In this document: in pieces, positions 11,394 to 19,555 of the stretch
Numbering within the stretch: position 1 is the stretch's first letter
Layout of the letters: each line of letters begins with the position of its first letter
Notes under the pieces: generated by a model
Seen by the model: only the letters and a program-made list of their open reading frames with translations
What the model was told of the DNA's origin: nothing
The model's database searches: none
DNA from: Fluviispira vulneris
Lineage (GTDB): Bacteria; Bdellovibrionota_B; Oligoflexia; Silvanigrellales; Silvanigrellaceae
DNA: 64,000 bases
NCBI RefSeq assembly: GCF_014281055.1
Contig: NZ_JACRSE010000001.1
Coordinates: 868,001-932,000, forward strand
Direction of reading: 5' to 3'
Translations under genes and position numbers: made by a program

Positions 11394-11938
11394 ATTCATT
11401 TCCTCATACAGTTGAAATGCTTATATAAAATTTTAAAATTATTTATATTTTTAAAAAGTTAATATTTTTTCATATCCATCTCTCCTTTTTTTAACAAATT
11501 AAACGCTTCTTATTAATTTTTTAATAAGACAATACTTTTTAAAGATTAAAAAAACTAAATATTAAATTGGTTTAAAGTGTTTACTTATGTTAACTCTTTC
11601 ATTACCATTTACATATTATAAAATAATTTTTAAAAACACAATTATAAATTTCAATATTTATTATTAATTTAATAATAAATATTCACATTAATAATATAAT
11701 TAACAAATACATTGCCTTATAAAAAAATTTACTCACCAAATGCCCCAGACACAACATATTGCAAAATAGCTTTGAAAATCATATAGTCCAATAGAGTTTT
11801 TAAATTGTTATCCAAACAGGTGCTATATTATATATTTCAACAAGATTGTCAAAATAATATCAAAAAAAAGAGCTTAAAAATGTTTCATAAAACATCTATA
11901 CAGAATTTTGAAAATTTATTGCAAGAAAGGAGAGATTT
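11394..11938. other. 545-nt very AT-rich intergenic region between divergent genes
   Basis: No frame with both a ribosome-binding site and protein-like composition was seen. A weak promoter-like pair TTGTTA (about 11807) with a 17-nt spacer to TTATAT points to the downstream plus-strand gene. Apart from this I see only short A/T tracts; the length and composition would suit regulatory curvature or a decayed gene. Confidence 0.4.
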
Positions 11939-12301
11939 ATGATGAAGATATTTAATAATTTCACATTTATAATTTGTGCAGCTATGATATCTCAAAGTGC
12001 TTCTGCAGAGATGAGCACATTGCAAACGATCAAGATTTCAGCTCTGCATCCACAAAATTGGGGCTATATCTCTTCGAGTATTCAAATAAATGACAGAAAT
12101 TGGATTCCATTTAATGAAGAGATCACACTCCCTATTTCTATTGGCAATAAAATTGATCTGAATGTTTATGCTATGAATTCTAAATCAGAGCTGGACTCGA
12201 GCTGTTTAAAAATAGAGATTAAGGAACAAAAAAAAATTCATTTGTTTTTTGAATTAAAACAGGATTGGAAAATTCATTGTTTCTTTGGTTACATAAAATA
12301 G
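11939..12301 (+). CDS. small secreted protein, unknown function
   Basis: 120 residues. AAGGAG lies 6 nt before the ATGATG start. Signal peptide of about 23 residues ends SASA-E. The mature part (about 97 residues) has aromatic/polar beta-type sequence and two late Cys (SSCLKI and IHCFF) that could form a disulfide. I recognise no family. The last 13 nt overlap the 3' end of leuB on the opposite strand. It stands alone between the AT-rich gap and the leu operon. Confidence 0.68.
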   Translation: MMKIFNNFTFIICAAMISQSASAEMSTLQTIKISALHPQNWGYISSSIQINDRNWIPFNEEITLPISIGNKIDLNVYAMNSKSELDSSCLKIEIKEQKKIHLFFELKQDWKIHCFFGYIK

Positions 12302-13365
12302 AGAATTTGCTCAGTCATTTGCTCTGTAGTCACTGCTTTTTCTTTGTCTATACATATATCCGAGGTTCTATAACCTGCTCGCAAAGCTTTTTGGATTGCA
12401 TTTTCTATACATTGAGCTTCCTCAACTAATTCAAATGAATGTCTTAAAAGCATGGCGAGTGACATGATCTGCGCAATTGGGTTTGCAATATTTTTTCCTG
12501 CAATGTCTGGAGCAGAGCCACCTGAAGGTTCATACAAAGCAAATCCAGTTTCATTAAAACTTGCTGAAGGCATAAGCCCTAAACTTCCTGGAAAGGCTGC
12601 AGCCGCATCGGAAAGAATATCTCCAAATAAATTTGCTGTTACAATAACATCAAACTGCGATGGATTGATAAAGAATTGCATAGCACAATTGTCAACCAAC
12701 ATATGTTCTAAAGTTACAGTGGGATATTGTTTACCGACCTCGGTAACCACCTCTCTCCACAATTTTGAAGTATCCAAAACATTTGCTTTATCAACCGATG
12801 TCACTTTACGCTTGCGCCCAAGGGCAATTTTAAAACTTTGATGAGCAACTGTTTCAATTTGCTTTTCATTGTATTCACAAAGATCCGATGCTTTCCTCAA
12901 CTGATTTTCAATAAATGTTCTATGCTCACCAAAGTAAACATCTCCTAAAAGCTCACGCACAATGACGATATCAATTCCTTCTCTTATAATAGTATCTTTT
13001 AATGGGCAGATATCTTTTAATTCAAAGTAAACTTTTGCTGGTCGAATATTAGAACTAAACTGAAATTCTTTTCTTAATGAAAGTATAGAATTTTTTTCAC
13101 AATCTTTCCATTTAGCAAGATGGGATTCTTGAATTGGTCCACCCACAGAACCAAACAAAATTGCATCTGCTTTTTGGCATATGAATTTCGTTGATTCTGG
13201 GAAATGACTGCCAAATTTTTCATAAGCTGCTCCACCTACATGACCATAATTAATGTCAAACTGGTGGTTAAATTTCTTTTCAATACCACGCAATACTTGT
13301 ATTGCTTGTTCCATAACTTCTGGTCCGATTCCGTCACCAGGTAAAACTGCAATTTTTTTATTCAT
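12289..13365 (-). CDS. leuB: 3-isopropylmalate dehydrogenase
   Basis: Oxidatively decarboxylates 3-isopropylmalate to 2-oxoisocaproate with NAD+, the last leucine-specific step before transamination. 358 residues. Visible motifs are the N-terminal PGDGIGPEV, the substrate Arg cluster and RELLGDVYFGEH, VDNCAMQF, NLFGDILSDAAA with metal-binding Asp residues, and ...EPSGGSAPDIAGK...NP. The start overlaps the leuD stop by one base (TAATG), with AGGA upstream. Last gene of leuACDB; its 3' end converges with the secreted protein gene at 11939. Confidence 0.97.
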   Translation of the reverse strand: MNKKIAVLPGDGIGPEVMEQAIQVLRGIEKKFNHQFDINYGHVGGAAYEKFGSHFPESTKFICQKADAILFGSVGGPIQESHLAKWKDCEKNSILSLRKEFQFSSNIRPAKVYFELKDICPLKDTIIREGIDIVIVRELLGDVYFGEHRTFIENQLRKASDLCEYNEKQIETVAHQSFKIALGRKRKVTSVDKANVLDTSKLWREVVTEVGKQYPTVTLEHMLVDNCAMQFFINPSQFDVIVTANLFGDILSDAAAAFPGSLGLMPSASFNETGFALYEPSGGSAPDIAGKNIANPIAQIMSLAMLLRHSFELVEEAQCIENAIQKALRAGYRTSDICIDKEKAVTTEQMTEQILYFM

Positions 13366-13970
13366 TATATTGTCCTATTTAATTTTGGTATAATATTTTT
13401 TTGCATTTGTTCTTGCTTAAATTTTTTAATTTTTTCTTTGAAAGAAAGTAGATAAACTATTTCATCAAATCCATTAATGAAACATGATTTTTGAAAATCA
13501 TCCATATTAAAATGATAAACATCTCCACATTTAGATTCGATTTTTGAGCTATGTAAATCGATTTTTAATATATATTCATTTTGTTTTGATTTTTCTAAAA
13601 TTTTATTTATTTCGCTTTCTGAAAGCTGGATTAGAATAAGACGATTTTTTAAACTATTTCCAGCAAAAATATCTGCAAATGATTGGGCAATTATTACTTG
13701 TATACCATACTCTTTTAACGCCCAAACGGCATGTTCGCGTGACGATCCACATCCAAAGTTATTTTTTGTAACTAAAATCTCAGCATCTTTATATTTTGTA
13801 TCATTAAAGATAAAATCAGGTGAATTTTCACGCAACCTTTTAAAAAGATTTTCACCATAGCCTTTGCGAGTCACTGAAGTTAAATATTGAGCAGGAATGA
13901 TTAAATCTGTATCTACATCACTCATCTCAAGTGGAATACATTTTCCTGTTATTAATGCTTTACTTTCCAT
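13365..13970 (-). CDS. leuD: 3-isopropylmalate dehydratase small subunit
   Basis: Small (swivel-domain) subunit of isopropylmalate isomerase, working with LeuC to convert 2- to 3-isopropylmalate. 201 residues; conserved VDTDLIIPAQYL near the N-terminus and the substrate-binding loop NNFGCGSSREHAVWALKEYGI, then QSFADIFAGNSLKN. Located directly after leuC (15 nt) and coupled to leuB. Normal family length. Confidence 0.96.
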   Translation of the reverse strand: MESKALITGKCIPLEMSDVDTDLIIPAQYLTSVTRKGYGENLFKRLRENSPDFIFNDTKYKDAEILVTKNNFGCGSSREHAVWALKEYGIQVIIAQSFADIFAGNSLKNRLILIQLSESEINKILEKSKQNEYILKIDLHSSKIESKCGDVYHFNMDDFQKSCFINGFDEIVYLLSFKEKIKKFKQEQMQKNIIPKLNRTI

Positions 13971-13985
13971 ATCTAAAACCTTTTT

Positions 13986-15383
13986 TTAAAAATATTTTGT
14001 AGGTGAACAGATTTTTCCTTCGATCGCACTTGCTATAACTGTTGCAGGAGAAGCTAAATGGGTAAAACTCCCAGTTCCCTGCCGTCCTACAAAATTTCGA
14101 TTTGTAGAACTAATGCATCTTTTCCCTGCTGGTACTTTATCATCGTTCATACCTAAGCATAACGAACATCCGGGCATACGAAAATCAGCACCTGCTTCTA
14201 AAAATATTTTATCGAGACCTTCTTTTTTTGCCTGTTGCATCACACCCTCAGAGCCAGGAACGATAAACAACGTAACAGATGGGTGGACTTTTTTATTTTG
14301 AATAATTTTTGCGCATATTCTGAGATCTTCAATTCTTCCATTCGTGCATGAACCTATAAATGCCCAATCAATTGGAATATCTCTCATTTTCATTCCACCT
14401 TTAAGATTCATATAATCTAAGGCTTTTTCATACATTATTTTTTCATTATGTGATATTTCAGACTTTTCAGGAATTTCTTTAGAAATTCCTATTGCTTGTG
14501 AAGGATTTGTCCCCCATGTTACCATAGGTTCTAATTCTTGTATATCAACAATAACTTCAGAATCATATTTACAATTTTCATCACTTCTAAAAGAATTCCA
14601 ATAGTTTACTAAATATTCCCAATCTTCTTCAACAGGTGCAAAAGGTCTTTGTGATAAATATTGATAAGTTGTTGCATCGGGTGAGATAAGACCTGCTTTT
14701 GCTCCACATTCTATACTCATGTTACAAATGGTCATTCGCTCTTCCATGCTCATTTCTCGTATGACTTGTCCTGTATATTCAATAATATAACCAGTTCCAC
14801 CTCCGATGCCTATTTGAGCTATCAACTTCATGATAAGATCTTTTGCAAAGACTCCCTTTTGTATTTTCCCACGGAATTCCACCTTCATAACTTTAGGTTT
14901 ATTTAATAATAAACATCCAGAAGCTAAAACATGCGATAATTCTGAGGTCCCGACTCCAAATGCTAAAGTTCCAAATGCACCGTGAGTTGCTGTGTGAGAA
15001 TCACCACAAATTAATGTCATTCCAGGTTGTGTGATTCCAAGCTCCGGTCCTATCACATGCACAATTCCCTGATATCCACTTTCAAAGTCATAAAATGGAA
15101 TCGAATTTTTTTTGGCATTGTATCTTAACAATTCAACCTGATTTTTAGCTGCTGTATCATATATTTCTGTTCTATTTTTCCGAGTTGGAATACTGTGATC
15201 AATTGTGGCTATACACTGATGAGGAAACATGATTTCAATATTTCGATCTTTGAGAGTCTGGAATGCCTGTGCAGATGTAACTTCATGTAAAAAAGCAAAA
15301 TCAATTGCACAAACTGAAGATTGTCCTGGAGTTTCATTTATTAAATGTGCATCCCAAATTTTTTCAACTATATTTTTATTCAT
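13986..15383 (-). CDS. leuC: 3-isopropylmalate dehydratase large subunit
   Basis: Fe-S subunit of isopropylmalate isomerase. The [4Fe-4S] ligands are in IGSCTNGRIEDL and PGCSLCLGMNDD; CGDSHTATHGAFG is also present. The frame can extend to 15446, inside leuA, but TGAGG (leuA stop plus Shine-Dalgarno) lies 8 nt before the ATG at 15383. That start gives 465 residues, the usual LeuC length, and a 10-nt gap to leuA. Second gene of the operon. Confidence 0.96.
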   Translation of the reverse strand: MNKNIVEKIWDAHLINETPGQSSVCAIDFAFLHEVTSAQAFQTLKDRNIEIMFPHQCIATIDHSIPTRKNRTEIYDTAAKNQVELLRYNAKKNSIPFYDFESGYQGIVHVIGPELGITQPGMTLICGDSHTATHGAFGTLAFGVGTSELSHVLASGCLLLNKPKVMKVEFRGKIQKGVFAKDLIMKLIAQIGIGGGTGYIIEYTGQVIREMSMEERMTICNMSIECGAKAGLISPDATTYQYLSQRPFAPVEEDWEYLVNYWNSFRSDENCKYDSEVIVDIQELEPMVTWGTNPSQAIGISKEIPEKSEISHNEKIMYEKALDYMNLKGGMKMRDIPIDWAFIGSCTNGRIEDLRICAKIIQNKKVHPSVTLFIVPGSEGVMQQAKKEGLDKIFLEAGADFRMPGCSLCLGMNDDKVPAGKRCISSTNRNFVGRQGTGSFTHLASPATVIASAIEGKICSPTKYF

Positions 15384-15393
15384 CTGCCGATCC

Positions 15394-16983
15394 TCAATTT
15401 GTTTTGACATAGGTTCTTCGAATATACATATGATTTGCTGCATCAATCAATGATTTTAAAGCAGATATTTCAATATCAAAGTCTTCACCGATTCCAGTAT
15501 AAATTTTATTGTCTTGATCTTCAATCATGGTTTTAGATCGATTTATTGCATTCACACCTTTTTCAATAGACTGACTGGAGTATCTTCCAATTTTCATATC
15601 AGGAATAAATTTCACTATAGCATTATATAGAGCAGTGTATACAGAGCCATCTTGTGAGTGAGTGAAATAAAATTTTTTATTTTCTCCAAAGAAATCGCCT
15701 TCAATTTCTATTGAATTATTATTATCCGATTTAGCATAATTAAAATTGTGAATTTTTATTGGTTTTCTATATTCAATATAAGTGCTAATTAACTCTGAAT
15801 CGGTAATTCCTTTTCGTCTGTCTGAATGAAAATCTTTTATAAATTGGGCAATGTTTGCCTTTTCCTCTTCACGACAAATATAGCCAAACTCTTCAATTAT
15901 GTCTTTGGCATGATTTCCACCACTAAAAGGGCCAAACAAAAATGAAATTTTCTTACCTATTTCATTTGGGTCAAACGGCTGATATGATAAAGGATTTTTT
16001 ATAATTGCGTTTGTATGACCTCCTGAAGAGTGCTTTGCCGCATTTTCTCCTGTAATTGGCCAATGCGGTTGACGTTGCAGCATATTTATACTGACAAAGT
16101 CAGAAATTGCTTGCAAATGTTCAATTTTAACATTTGTATAGTAATGCATTTTATTATTTTCGCACGCTCCAAATTTTTTAAGAAACATAATTGTTTGCTC
16201 TAAAGAAACATTACCAGCTCTTTCGCCAATGCCATTAAAACAACCCTCTATTTGTGTGGCTGGACCATAGATTACTGCGTTGATCGAGTTCTCGAGTGCT
16301 AAGCCAAAATCATTGTGGCAGTGAGCCGACCAAGTAATTTTTTTATTAGGAAATTCTTTTTCAATAATTTTTGCATGATCATTCATTTTTTCTACAAAAT
16401 ATTCACGTCCCTGTAATTTACAAGCTCCGCCAATTGTATCAGGACAATTTATTATAGTTGCACCAGCATCTATAGCAGCTCTGATTAAATCAGTTACAAA
16501 ATTAAAATGCTCACCCATCCTAGAATATCCTTCTGGACTGAACTCGACTTCGACATCTGCTTGCGTTGCAATTTTAATATAATTGTAAACATCTTTTATT
16601 ATTTGTGAGAAATTTTTTCCATAATCACCCAAGGCAGACATCAGTTGTGAATCCACTGGCACATATGTATGTAAACGTGCTCTGCCATATTTAATTGCTG
16701 GTTCAAGAGAACGAACAGTAGTTGCAATTTGATTTTCTCTAAGTTGACAGAGAGCAGCAATAATAGGACTTGTTTTATTTTCTACAACTTCTTTTGCAAC
16801 AGAATGGACGATCATATAATCTAATTTACTTGCACTTGGAAAACCAACTTCAATAATATCAATATTTGCTTTTGCTGCCAATTTTGCATATTCAATATTA
16901 TTTTCGAATGACATTCCTGCACCTGGGCACTGTTGTCCATCTCTTAAGGTTGTATCAAATATTTTTATCTGACGTGATTGCAT
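15394..16983 (-). CDS. leuA: 2-isopropylmalate synthase
   Basis: Condenses acetyl-CoA with 2-oxoisovalerate, the committed step of leucine synthesis and usually the feedback-inhibited one. The TIM barrel begins with FDTTLRDGQQCPGAGMS (metal-binding Asp in TLRDG) and includes the metal-site HCHNDFGLALENS and the GIGERAGN loop. The C-terminal ~110 residues form the LeuA allosteric/dimerisation region. 529 residues from the ATG at 16983, chosen because GGAG lies 6 nt upstream; upstream ATGs at 16995 and 17007 lack a site. First gene of leuACDB, 128 nt downstream of a leucine-rich leader peptide. Confidence 0.96.
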   Translation of the reverse strand: MQSRQIKIFDTTLRDGQQCPGAGMSFENNIEYAKLAAKANIDIIEVGFPSASKLDYMIVHSVAKEVVENKTSPIIAALCQLRENQIATTVRSLEPAIKYGRARLHTYVPVDSQLMSALGDYGKNFSQIIKDVYNYIKIATQADVEVEFSPEGYSRMGEHFNFVTDLIRAAIDAGATIINCPDTIGGACKLQGREYFVEKMNDHAKIIEKEFPNKKITWSAHCHNDFGLALENSINAVIYGPATQIEGCFNGIGERAGNVSLEQTIMFLKKFGACENNKMHYYTNVKIEHLQAISDFVSINMLQRQPHWPITGENAAKHSSGGHTNAIIKNPLSYQPFDPNEIGKKISFLFGPFSGGNHAKDIIEEFGYICREEEKANIAQFIKDFHSDRRKGITDSELISTYIEYRKPIKIHNFNYAKSDNNNSIEIEGDFFGENKKFYFTHSQDGSVYTALYNAIVKFIPDMKIGRYSSQSIEKGVNAINRSKTMIEDQDNKIYTGIGEDFDIEISALKSLIDAANHMYIRRTYVKTN

Positions 16984-17111
16984 AACAAACTCCATTCTAA
17001 ATTTCATGTTAAATAATACAATTGTGTTAATACATTCGAAAAATTATTAAGAAAGTATATATTTTATTTTATAACAAATATGATAATATTAAATTTTAAA
17101 AAAAGATTGTT

Positions 17112-17213
17112 TTAATTTAGTAGAGATAGATCTAGATAAGATAGGAGGAGCATTGAGGATTTGTAATATGGTTTAATTATATCGAAACTATTATTTTTCT
17201 GTATGCCCTTCAT
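17112..17213 (-). CDS. leucine-rich leader peptide of the leu operon (candidate LeuL)
   Basis: A 33-codon frame on the minus strand: ATG at 17213, GAGGG 7 nt upstream, TAA at 17112-17114, 128 nt before leuA. Residues 21-32 read MLLLSYLDLSLL: seven leucines among eleven codons (22-32). All are CTC or CTA; the TTA codon expected in such AT-rich DNA is absent. Position, size, ribosome-binding site and leucine clustering are the hallmarks of a leader peptide whose translation senses charged tRNA-Leu (established for enteric leu operons). A clear Rho-independent attenuator is not visible after it; TTTTTTT occurs 10 nt past the stop but without a good stem. The output mechanism is therefore open. 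Confidence 0.72.
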   Translation of the reverse strand: MKGIQKNNSFDIIKPYYKSSMLLLSYLDLSLLN

Positions 17214-17330
17214 TTTACATCCCTCATTATAATCCACGAGATATTACTATCCGGTCAGTCATATGCATGTATCTATCATAAGTTTTTTTTTATGTAAAGA
17301 TTTTCATTAAAAATTTATTTTTATTAAATA

Positions 17331-17359
17331 TTGACGATAAAAATTTTTTATAACGTCAA
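17331..17359. promoter_or_regulatory. inverted repeat in the leu/sulP divergent region
   Basis: TTGACG (17331-17336) and CGTCAA (17354-17359) flank an A/T core that is itself nearly self-complementary (ATAAAAA against TTTTTAT). It could be a dimeric regulator site or a hairpin, lying 115 nt before the SulP gene and upstream of the leu leader. No known consensus matched with confidence. Confidence 0.35.
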
Positions 17360-17473
17360 TTAATTAGCACCACTTTCTAATTTATGTTAATCAAGATATA
17401 AATTGAAAATAATGAATTTTAGAGGAATAAATATTTTTGTAATTTAACTTAATATGATCGATTTGGAGTTACA

Positions 17474-19555
17474 ATGAAGAAATTAATTGGATATTCTAAT
17501 TCTAATCATATTCTCATTAAAAATAAGAATTTATTTCATAAAAAATCATTGGAAAAAAATATATTTAATTTAAAAAATATTTTGCATATAAATGATCTCG
17601 CAAAAGATCTTACTGATAATTGGCTCGAAGTGCTGCGCAGTAAAAGTTTAATTCAAGATATAATTGCTGCAATAACTGTCGCTTCAGTTGCACTCCCCCT
17701 CAATATTGCACTTGCTGTTGCCTGCGGACTGCCAGCAAGTACTGGGATCATAGCCGGCGCCGTAGGCGGAGGGATAGCGGCTTTATTTGGTGGATCTGCT
17801 TTGCAAGTAACAGGACCTGCTGCAGCCCTAAGCTTTATGATTTTATCCATTACCAAGGAATTTGGTGCAGTGGGTGTTGCTGGAGCTTGCATTATTATTG
17901 CAATTATTCAGTTCTTACTGAGTTTATTAAAAGCAGGAAGATTTATCAAATTTATGCCTGAAGCCGTTCTCGTCGGATTTACGACTGGAGTTGGCTTGAG
18001 ACTGCTTGACAACCAATTTCCTGAATTACTTGGATTTAATAGTAGTGTTTTTGCAATTTCAAAAATTTTTAACAGAAGTGATTGGCTACATGAAGTTTCA
18101 TGGCACGCTGTTGTCTGTGGCCTTGTTGTTGCATTGCTTGTCACGTCTTGCAAACAGTTTAAACGCTTCCCTGCTGCCTTTGTTGGAATTGTTATCGTCA
18201 CAGAAGTGTCCACAAGATTAGACTGGAGCATTCAAAGAGTTGGTTCAATTCCTTCTTTTTTACCTTTACCGAGTTTGCCATTGCTCAGTTTAGACAGATG
18301 GATTCAACTTCTTGCTCTTGCAATTCCCTTAGCTTTCCTTGCTTCAATTGAGTCATTGCTTTCCGCTCAAGCTATTGACCGAATTTCACATAGTAAAAAG
18401 AGTCACAATTCAAACCTCGAGCTCTTTGGCCAAGGCTTTGCCAACTTAGGTTCAGGATTATTCGGCGGTATGCCCGTTTCGGGAGTCATTGTTCGATCGA
18501 GTGTCAATGTCCAATGCGGAGCGAAAACGAGACTGTCTTCTCTTCTTCATGCAGTTCTTCTGTTGGTATGCATATTCTATTTGGCAGATACGATGGCGTC
18601 CATTCCTTTAGCAGCACTCGCTGGTTTGCTGTGTGTGATCGGTCTGAGACTTGTTGAATTTAAAACTTTTTTTCATTTACTCAAAGCTCAAAAATTTGCA
18701 GCTCTCTCTTTTGCCCTGACCATGATTGGCACTGTTTCAGGACATCTTTTATGGGGGCTTTTAAGTGGTATTCTTGTATTTTCTTTTGGCTATTGGCTTA
18801 AAAAGCCCGAGAAAAAAACTGAGATTTCTCCACTCAAATCGAAAAATATTCGTGGCCATTTACCAAGTCGAATAAAGGTTGAGTATAAAAAACCAACACA
18901 TTATACACTGCCAATAGAAAATCAAAATTGGCTCACACAAATTCGTGAAAAAGCATATATAACGGCCTCCGCATTCGTTCATCAAAAAGCATCTTTGATC
19001 GGGCGTATTGTTTTAGGGGATCATGTTCATATTGCAGCAGAATCTTCAATCCGTGCCGATGAAGGAACACCATTTTTTATTGGTTCAAATTCTAATATTC
19101 AGGATGGAGTTGTTATCCATGCTTTGAAAGAAAAATGGGTAAGCGTTGGCGGCGAAGACTGGGCAGTGTATATTGGAGAAAATGTATCTGTTGCTCACCA
19201 GGCACTCGTCCATGGTCCATGTTTTATAGGGGATAATTCCTTTATTGGTTTTCAAGCAATTGTTCATGATTCTATCATCGGTTCGCATTGTTATATTGGT
19301 ATCGGAGCCATCGTTGTTGGAGTCGAAATTCCCGCTGGACGTTATGTCCCGCATGGAATGGTTGTCGATTCTCTCGATAAAGTTGATATACTCCCTCAAG
19401 TTACAGATGCACATATGAATTTCAATGAAGATGTCGTTGATGTGAATAAAGGGCTAGTCGCAGCTTATAAAAAACACAATGGTCATTTTGATACCAATAA
19501 AAAGAATTTAGAAAATACAAGTATGAAATGGAAAAAGACGCCCTATAAATTTTAA
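17474..19555 (+). CDS. SulP-family anion transporter fused to a gamma-carbonic-anhydrase-like domain
   Basis: 693 residues. Residues about 40-445 form the SulP membrane domain: PLNIALAVACGLPASTGIIAGAVGG, the FGGSALQVTGPAAA signature, and many TM segments. Instead of a STAS domain, residues about 460-650 carry left-handed beta-helix hexapeptides like Cam/CcmM: IRADEGTPFFIGSNSNIQDGVVIH, VSVAHQALVHG, and PAGRYVPHGMVV. The three His positions for zinc (549, 575, 580) are present, the last two with the 5-residue spacing known in Cam. Inferred role: bicarbonate uptake coupled to CO2/bicarbonate interconversion. SulP-carbonic anhydrase fusions are known. TTTGGAG precedes the ATG. First of three plus-strand genes with two SPFH partners. 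Confidence 0.88.
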   Translation: MKKLIGYSNSNHILIKNKNLFHKKSLEKNIFNLKNILHINDLAKDLTDNWLEVLRSKSLIQDIIAAITVASVALPLNIALAVACGLPASTGIIAGAVGGGIAALFGGSALQVTGPAAALSFMILSITKEFGAVGVAGACIIIAIIQFLLSLLKAGRFIKFMPEAVLVGFTTGVGLRLLDNQFPELLGFNSSVFAISKIFNRSDWLHEVSWHAVVCGLVVALLVTSCKQFKRFPAAFVGIVIVTEVSTRLDWSIQRVGSIPSFLPLPSLPLLSLDRWIQLLALAIPLAFLASIESLLSAQAIDRISHSKKSHNSNLELFGQGFANLGSGLFGGMPVSGVIVRSSVNVQCGAKTRLSSLLHAVLLLVCIFYLADTMASIPLAALAGLLCVIGLRLVEFKTFFHLLKAQKFAALSFALTMIGTVSGHLLWGLLSGILVFSFGYWLKKPEKKTEISPLKSKNIRGHLPSRIKVEYKKPTHYTLPIENQNWLTQIREKAYITASAFVHQKASLIGRIVLGDHVHIAAESSIRADEGTPFFIGSNSNIQDGVVIHALKEKWVSVGGEDWAVYIGENVSVAHQALVHGPCFIGDNSFIGFQAIVHDSIIGSHCYIGIGAIVVGVEIPAGRYVPHGMVVDSLDKVDILPQVTDAHMNFNEDVVDVNKGLVAAYKKHNGHFDTNKKNLENTSMKWKKTPYKF

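Follow-up and report, generated by a model that had tools for sequence, protein, structure and literature searches.

A probable leucine leader peptide ahead of leuACDB in Fluviispira vulneris, without a canonical intrinsic terminator

How could a leucine operon be controlled by a leader peptide if the terminator hairpin of the classical case is missing? The question is raised by a 64,000-nucleotide (nt) stretch of the Fluviispira vulneris genome (contig NZ_JACRSE010000001.1, positions 868,001 to 932,000; hereafter the window). There, leuA is the first gene of leuACDB on the minus strand, and in front of it lies an ATG frame (17213–17112; 33 codons and TAA) that encodes the 33-amino acid (aa) peptide MKGIQKNNSFDIIKPYYKSSMLLLSYLDLSLLN. 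Between its stop codon and the ATG of leuA (16983) are 128 nt. Comparison with relatives and folding of the region indicate that this frame probably encodes a leucine leader peptide through which leuACDB is controlled with no canonical intrinsic terminator. The sensing part, in which the leader reports leucine supply to leuACDB, is quite likely. The parts of the region are as follows.

17270–17298, minus strand: promoter-like TTTACA and TAGATA separated by 17 nt (three-way alignment; hexamers assigned by eye)
17221–17225, minus strand: Shine-Dalgarno (SD)-like GAGGG of the leader (sequence; SD-like words also in two relatives, G005 and G006)
17112–17213, minus strand: putative leucine leader peptide, 33 codons and stop (sequence, shuffles, comparison with relatives)
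17118–17150, minus strand: control region, seven Leu codons (two CTC, five CTA) within 11 positions (sequence, counts)
16984–17111, minus strand: spacer between the leader stop and leuA, 128 nt, untranslated and A/U-rich, with 9 C and 10 G and no GC-rich terminator (hairpin scans)
16990–16993, minus strand: SD sequence of leuA, GGAG (sequence, alignment)

The Leu codons are concentrated in codons 22–32 of the leader, which read CTC CTC CTA .. CTA. CTA. CTA CTA, where each dot is another codon. A leuA of the window type was present in three of the eight genus genomes searched, namely the window genome (G000), Fluviispira multicolorata (G005, NZ_WFLN01000004.1; Silvanigrellaceae, Bdellovibrionota), and a third genome of the genus (G006). 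All three carry a Leu-rich frame before this leuA, with the Leu residues clustered C-terminally and an SD-like word upstream. The leader is MKSKQVNSNFSISISVQNSTSNLFTLLLLSLHY in G005 and MKTFEYYQYSYFNQNKPHTSISLKTSILLVPSLLIKL in G006, each with its SD-like word, and the spacers to leuA measure 131 and 115 nt, respectively. The N-terminal halves of the three leaders differ while the C-terminal Leu cluster persists, and LeuA identity among the genus genomes goes down to 71–77%. Upstream, TCTTTACA and the adjoining CTTATG of the promoter-like site were kept in G005 and G006 in the three-way alignment.

Six distant leuA leaders are likewise Leu-rich. One belongs to G018, a genome of the same class as the window genome with a LeuA 56% identical; another to G034, whose protein shares 34% identity with the query and is possibly not a genuine LeuA; and the remaining four to Obscuribacterales genomes (L002–L005), which come from one order and are not mutually independent. 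L001 and L007 are one stretch of one genome and were counted once, the short and weak matches L015–L017 were left out, and the leader of L003 was taken from two neighbouring starts in different analyses. Among eight further distant LeuA-like matches, seven had no upstream frame with at least five Leu in 11 codons; the eighth (L018) has a Leu-rich frame lying inside the neighbouring leuB in another reading frame, which was taken as chance. As a separate observation, the Leu-rich leader and terminator of L002–L005 stand directly before leuA, a classical-looking leu attenuator far from Proteobacteria and Actinobacteria.

To what extent could such a frame be accidental? When the 466 bases upstream were dinucleotide-shuffled 3000 times, frames of 12–80 aa with at least seven Leu in 11 codons arose in 6 shuffles, and the same density was seen in 3 of 1378 short frames (12–80 aa) on both strands of the window, the leader included. 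The window, G005, and G006 also pass a stricter leader test, which asked for an ATG, an SD-like word, and at least five Leu in the final 14 codons; the corresponding shuffles passed it in 8, 5, and 4 of 2000 cases, respectively. Short Leu-rich frames therefore do arise in shuffles at a low rate; against a chance open frame stand the Leu-rich leaders that precede leuA in nine genomes, drawn from two groups far apart, and this explanation is very improbable.

The choice of Leu codons provides a second line of evidence. In the 50 window open reading frames of at least 180 codons, Leu is encoded by TTA (.394), CTT (.232), TTG (.149), CTC (.116), CTA (.064), and CTG (.045), with CTC and CTA together making up 18%. 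All seven Leu codons of the leader are of these two kinds (p = 6e-6; this p value, like the others for Leu codons and Leu content, is post hoc, the feature having been picked beforehand). The same exclusive use is found in both leaders of the window genome, 7/7 in the leu leader and 5/5 in the leader of ilvB. Codon choice is less strict in the leu leader of G006, where the six Leu codons are TTA, CTT, CTC, CTT, CTG, and CTC. Enrichment of C at the Leu codons of the leu leaders gave p values of 0.0057, 0.0018, and 0.062 (window, G005, and G006), and their non-Leu codons fit genome usage (0.44, 0.49, and 0.68 for C, in the same order). Because the C bias is limited to Leu codons while the other codons follow genome usage, the pattern suggests that selection acts on which Leu codon is used and not on the composition of the RNA, as for the CUA codons of the Salmonella leu leader and in the selective-charging theory treated in an excerpt of PMC1183508. 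An exception on C bias outside Leu codons is the ilvB leader of G006 (p 0.001).

According to the same excerpt, replacement of CUA by CUG in the Salmonella leu leader reduced its sensitivity (PMC1183508). The CTC/CTA choice, recurring in the ilvB leader, would fit starvation-sensitive control codons. Among the loci scanned, the window genome has one tRNA-Leu gene each for the anticodons TAA, TAG, CAA, GAG, and CAG; that GAG and TAG are encoded was counted in favour of a Leu-sensing leader. We also considered whether the codon choice reflects selection for a C-rich Rho site, and rejected this since the non-Leu codons of the leu leaders carry no C bias. An initial annotation of the region had described a Leu-rich 33-codon frame with its own ribosome-binding site 128 nt before leuA, and the coordinates, the GAGGG, and the Leu counts all agree with it. 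Its view that the CTC/CTA choice looks selected is borne out by the 7/7 against an expected 18%, by the restriction of the bias to Leu, and by its recurrence before ilvB; and the Leu-rich frames it proposed to seek upstream of leuA in relatives, whose absence it had named as a refutation, were found (3/3 genus genomes and the six distant leaders).

What sets this locus apart is the region after the leader. One hairpin-plus-T-tract test was run over 12 leaders. The six outside leu leaders have GC-rich terminators of −13.1 to −20.0 kcal/mol located 46–58 nt past the leader stop. The ilvB leaders of G000, G005, and G006 (L054, L055, and L052) encode Ile/Val/Leu-rich peptides whose Leu codons are mostly CTC or CTA, and carry terminators of −18.4 to −19.0 kcal/mol at 57–59 nt past the stop. 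In the same test, the leu leaders of these three genomes gave no stem (G000) or stems of −4.3 (G005) and −2.7 kcal/mol (G006), with 0 or 1 GC pair. In agreement with this result, a simple terminator scanner returned nothing on the minus strand from 11400 to 17700 and nothing for the G005 and G006 leu leaders, and its positive controls, G018 and the G000 ilvB leader, were both detected. A hidden minus-strand terminator between 11400 and 17700 was rejected on the basis of this negative scan. Given strong ilvB terminators and none at leu in the same genomes, G000, G005, and G006 carry a classical attenuator at ilvB and none at leu. On these scans, the GC-rich terminator is genuinely absent, and its absence is particular to this lineage.

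How, then, might the leader act? The frame, its place, the Leu run, and the codon choice are supported by comparison; translation of the leader and its response to leucine are inferred. When charged tRNA-Leu for CUC and CUA is scarce, the ribosome would halt in the Leu run and leuACDB would be expressed; with leucine in good supply, the ribosome would complete the leader and leave at the stop codon, and leuA expression would be cut. Rho could bring about the second outcome by terminating transcription in the 128-nt G-poor untranslated spacer after the leader ribosome has left, and a stalled ribosome could shield the C-rich Leu run from Rho. A rho gene scored above cut-off in 3/3 genomes (G000, G005, and G006). 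The excess of C over G in 78 nt over the Leu run amounts to 17, 22, and 17 in the window, G005, and G006, values reached at 0.22%, 0.04%, and 0.22% of window positions, respectively. Rho-dependent termination was kept as the leading candidate for the output step on account of the length, lack of translation, and low G content of the spacer and because no hairpin turned up, though we hold it tentatively and give it somewhat less than an even chance.

Several results weigh against a terminator-less leader acting in this manner. Leaders that do bear terminators are nearly as C-rich (16 each for G018, G034, and the G006 ilvB leader), and the C excess is accounted for by the Leu codons and does not single out Rho; with comparable values in terminator-bearing leaders, the Rho evidence is permissive only. 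Folding with a ribosome footprint set at one codon after another did not reveal a clear switch at the start of leuA in the window, the SD region remaining 0.15–0.27 unpaired, and RNAalifold on the three leaders gave a weak consensus of −4.46 kcal/mol. The terminator-less state is based on n = 3 close genomes. Folding and RNAalifold also disclosed no conserved alternative structure, from three sequences, that could serve as a mutually exclusive antiterminator.

Control might instead be translational, a possibility that the initial annotation had not raised, with RNA structure hiding the leuA SD when leucine is present and a stalled leader ribosome exposing it. In G005, the Leu run and the leuA SD form a duplex of −16.6 kcal/mol, and in the full fold their pair probabilities reach as much as 0.89; the window shows unusually strong pairing of the leuA SD and start (0.19 unpaired, close to the 5th percentile among 41 start sites), the partner being a local A/U stem. 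Against this, the window duplex between Leu run and SD reaches just −9.9 kcal/mol and 30 of 40 other window start regions bind the Leu run equally well or better, as do 22/41 start regions in G006 and 4/41 in G005. Synonymous recoding attained the observed duplex in 59%, 27%, and 5% of 2000 trials for the window, G006, and G005, and accessibility of the leuA SD is ordinary in both G005 and G006. Taken together, these values make SD hiding an unlikely explanation. The specific candidate of the Leu run as an anti-SD of leuA, suggested by the G005 duplex and a TCCCAT/ATGGGA match in G006, was rejected, the pairing being at chance level in the window and G006.

A weak, almost wholly A/U intrinsic terminator could also have replaced the GC-rich one that relatives carry. 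The G005 and G006 stems end 61 and 51 nt past the leader stop, near the 46–59 nt of the GC-rich terminators, and equally good stems were obtained in 19/300 (G005) and 15/300 (G006) shuffles, a marginal result. However, these stems have just −4.3 and −2.7 kcal/mol and poor T-tracts, none qualifies in the window, and the ilvB leaders of the same genomes have stems of −18 to −19 kcal/mol, so that an A/U terminator appears improbable. Of a similarly low probability is a leader that is a relic, its terminator lost, leuACDB now constitutive or controlled at the promoter, and its Leu run decaying. Such decay would be in line with the failure to find an output element and with the patchy presence of leuA in the genus (3/8 genomes), but the Leu runs, SD words, and CTN codons were kept in three genomes in spite of LeuA at 71–77% identity and a changed remainder of the leader. 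With regard to the output step, the initial annotation had seen no evident terminator hairpin, and the scanner and the hairpin test, with their controls, concur. Its suggestion of Rho or a weak A/U structure holds in part: Rho is compatible with the data without being specifically indicated, and an A/U hairpin occurs in G005 and G006 with none qualifying in the window.

The spacer contains one further part.

17086–17101, minus strand: short A/T block, TTTTAAAATTTAATAT in the window, with its core kept in the three genus genomes (shuffle comparison)

The block reads AAATTTAATA, AAACTTAATA, and AAATTTAATA in the three genus genomes and is positioned 13–15 nt past the leader stop. Shuffles matched it in 0/300 cases at word lengths of 10 and 16, in 2/300 at 12, and in 80/300 at 8; shared spacer ancestry, which shuffling removes, could contribute to its conservation. 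We consider it about an even chance that the Silvanigrellaceae leu leader shed its intrinsic terminator and now signals through something else (Rho, or the shape or decay of the RNA at the start of leuA, possibly via this block) with the ilvB leader remaining classical, in which case a single genome would couple one type of sensor to two different output mechanisms.

The leader can be compared with several known systems. The leuL leader of Salmonella and Escherichia coli, a case of ribosome-mediated transcription attenuation, is similarly short, lies just before leuA, and has clustered rare Leu codons including CUA, as described in an excerpt of PMC1183508; unlike it, the window, G005, and G006 lack a GC-rich terminator between leader and leuA. 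Rfam leu leader families had no window match at gathering score, and at E values up to 5 the sole Rfam match within 16950–17473 was mir-365 (E 4.1), taken as chance. In the actinobacterial LEU element, base pairing between the Leu codons and the SD of leuA has been proposed (PMC1262725, in part); here, in contrast, such pairing is at chance level in the window and G006 and strong in G005 alone. A conserved pseudoknot is another feature of that element. The consulted section of the same paper suggests Rho-dependent termination, as in tna of E. coli, for terminator-less leader peptides such as the mycobacterial cys leaders (PMC1262725). These resemble the window leu leader in having no terminator and differ from it in amino acid and phylum. 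An excerpt of PMC5864092 offers a classical terminator-based attenuation case. Open-licence PMC text yielded no paper dealing with this leader or with attenuation in Silvanigrellales.

The closest comparison is within the genome itself. The ilvB leaders share with the leu leader a branched-chain peptide and CTC/CTA-leaning Leu codons and differ in their textbook GC-rich terminators. The locus thus appears to combine a probable sensor of known type with the absence of the standard output element, while the sister ilvB leader retains its own. This natural pair of branched-chain leader peptides in one genome, one with a terminator and one without, makes the output step of terminator-less leaders, which an excerpt of PMC1262725 leaves open for actinobacterial leu and cys, directly testable. 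A leader peptide can exist where no terminator does, and terminator-based screens overlook such cases.

The genes of the operon were assigned as follows.

15394–16983, minus strand: leuA, resembling 2-isopropylmalate synthase; LeuA models are the best NCBIfam matches, with scores under the curated cut-offs (profile search)
13986–15446, minus strand: leuC, frame from its first start, the true start probably lying inside (open reading frame list, profile search)
13365–13970, minus strand: leuD (profile search)
12289–13365, minus strand: leuB (profile search)

The window LeuA scores far under the NCBIfam curated cut-offs for every LeuA model, and its matches outside the genus in the genome collection are LeuA proteins of Obscuribacterales at 57–59%. 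Given the low scores, these matches, and the presence in 3/8 genus genomes, it may be an unusual, possibly transferred type of LeuA. G006 holds a second leuCDB set (L089, 3500–7824) with another LeuA-like synthase at its end. The divergent neighbour of the operon (window 17474–19555) is a single 693-aa frame that, by translation alone, resembles a SulP-type anion transporter joined to a gamma-carbonic-anhydrase-like hexapeptide-repeat domain.
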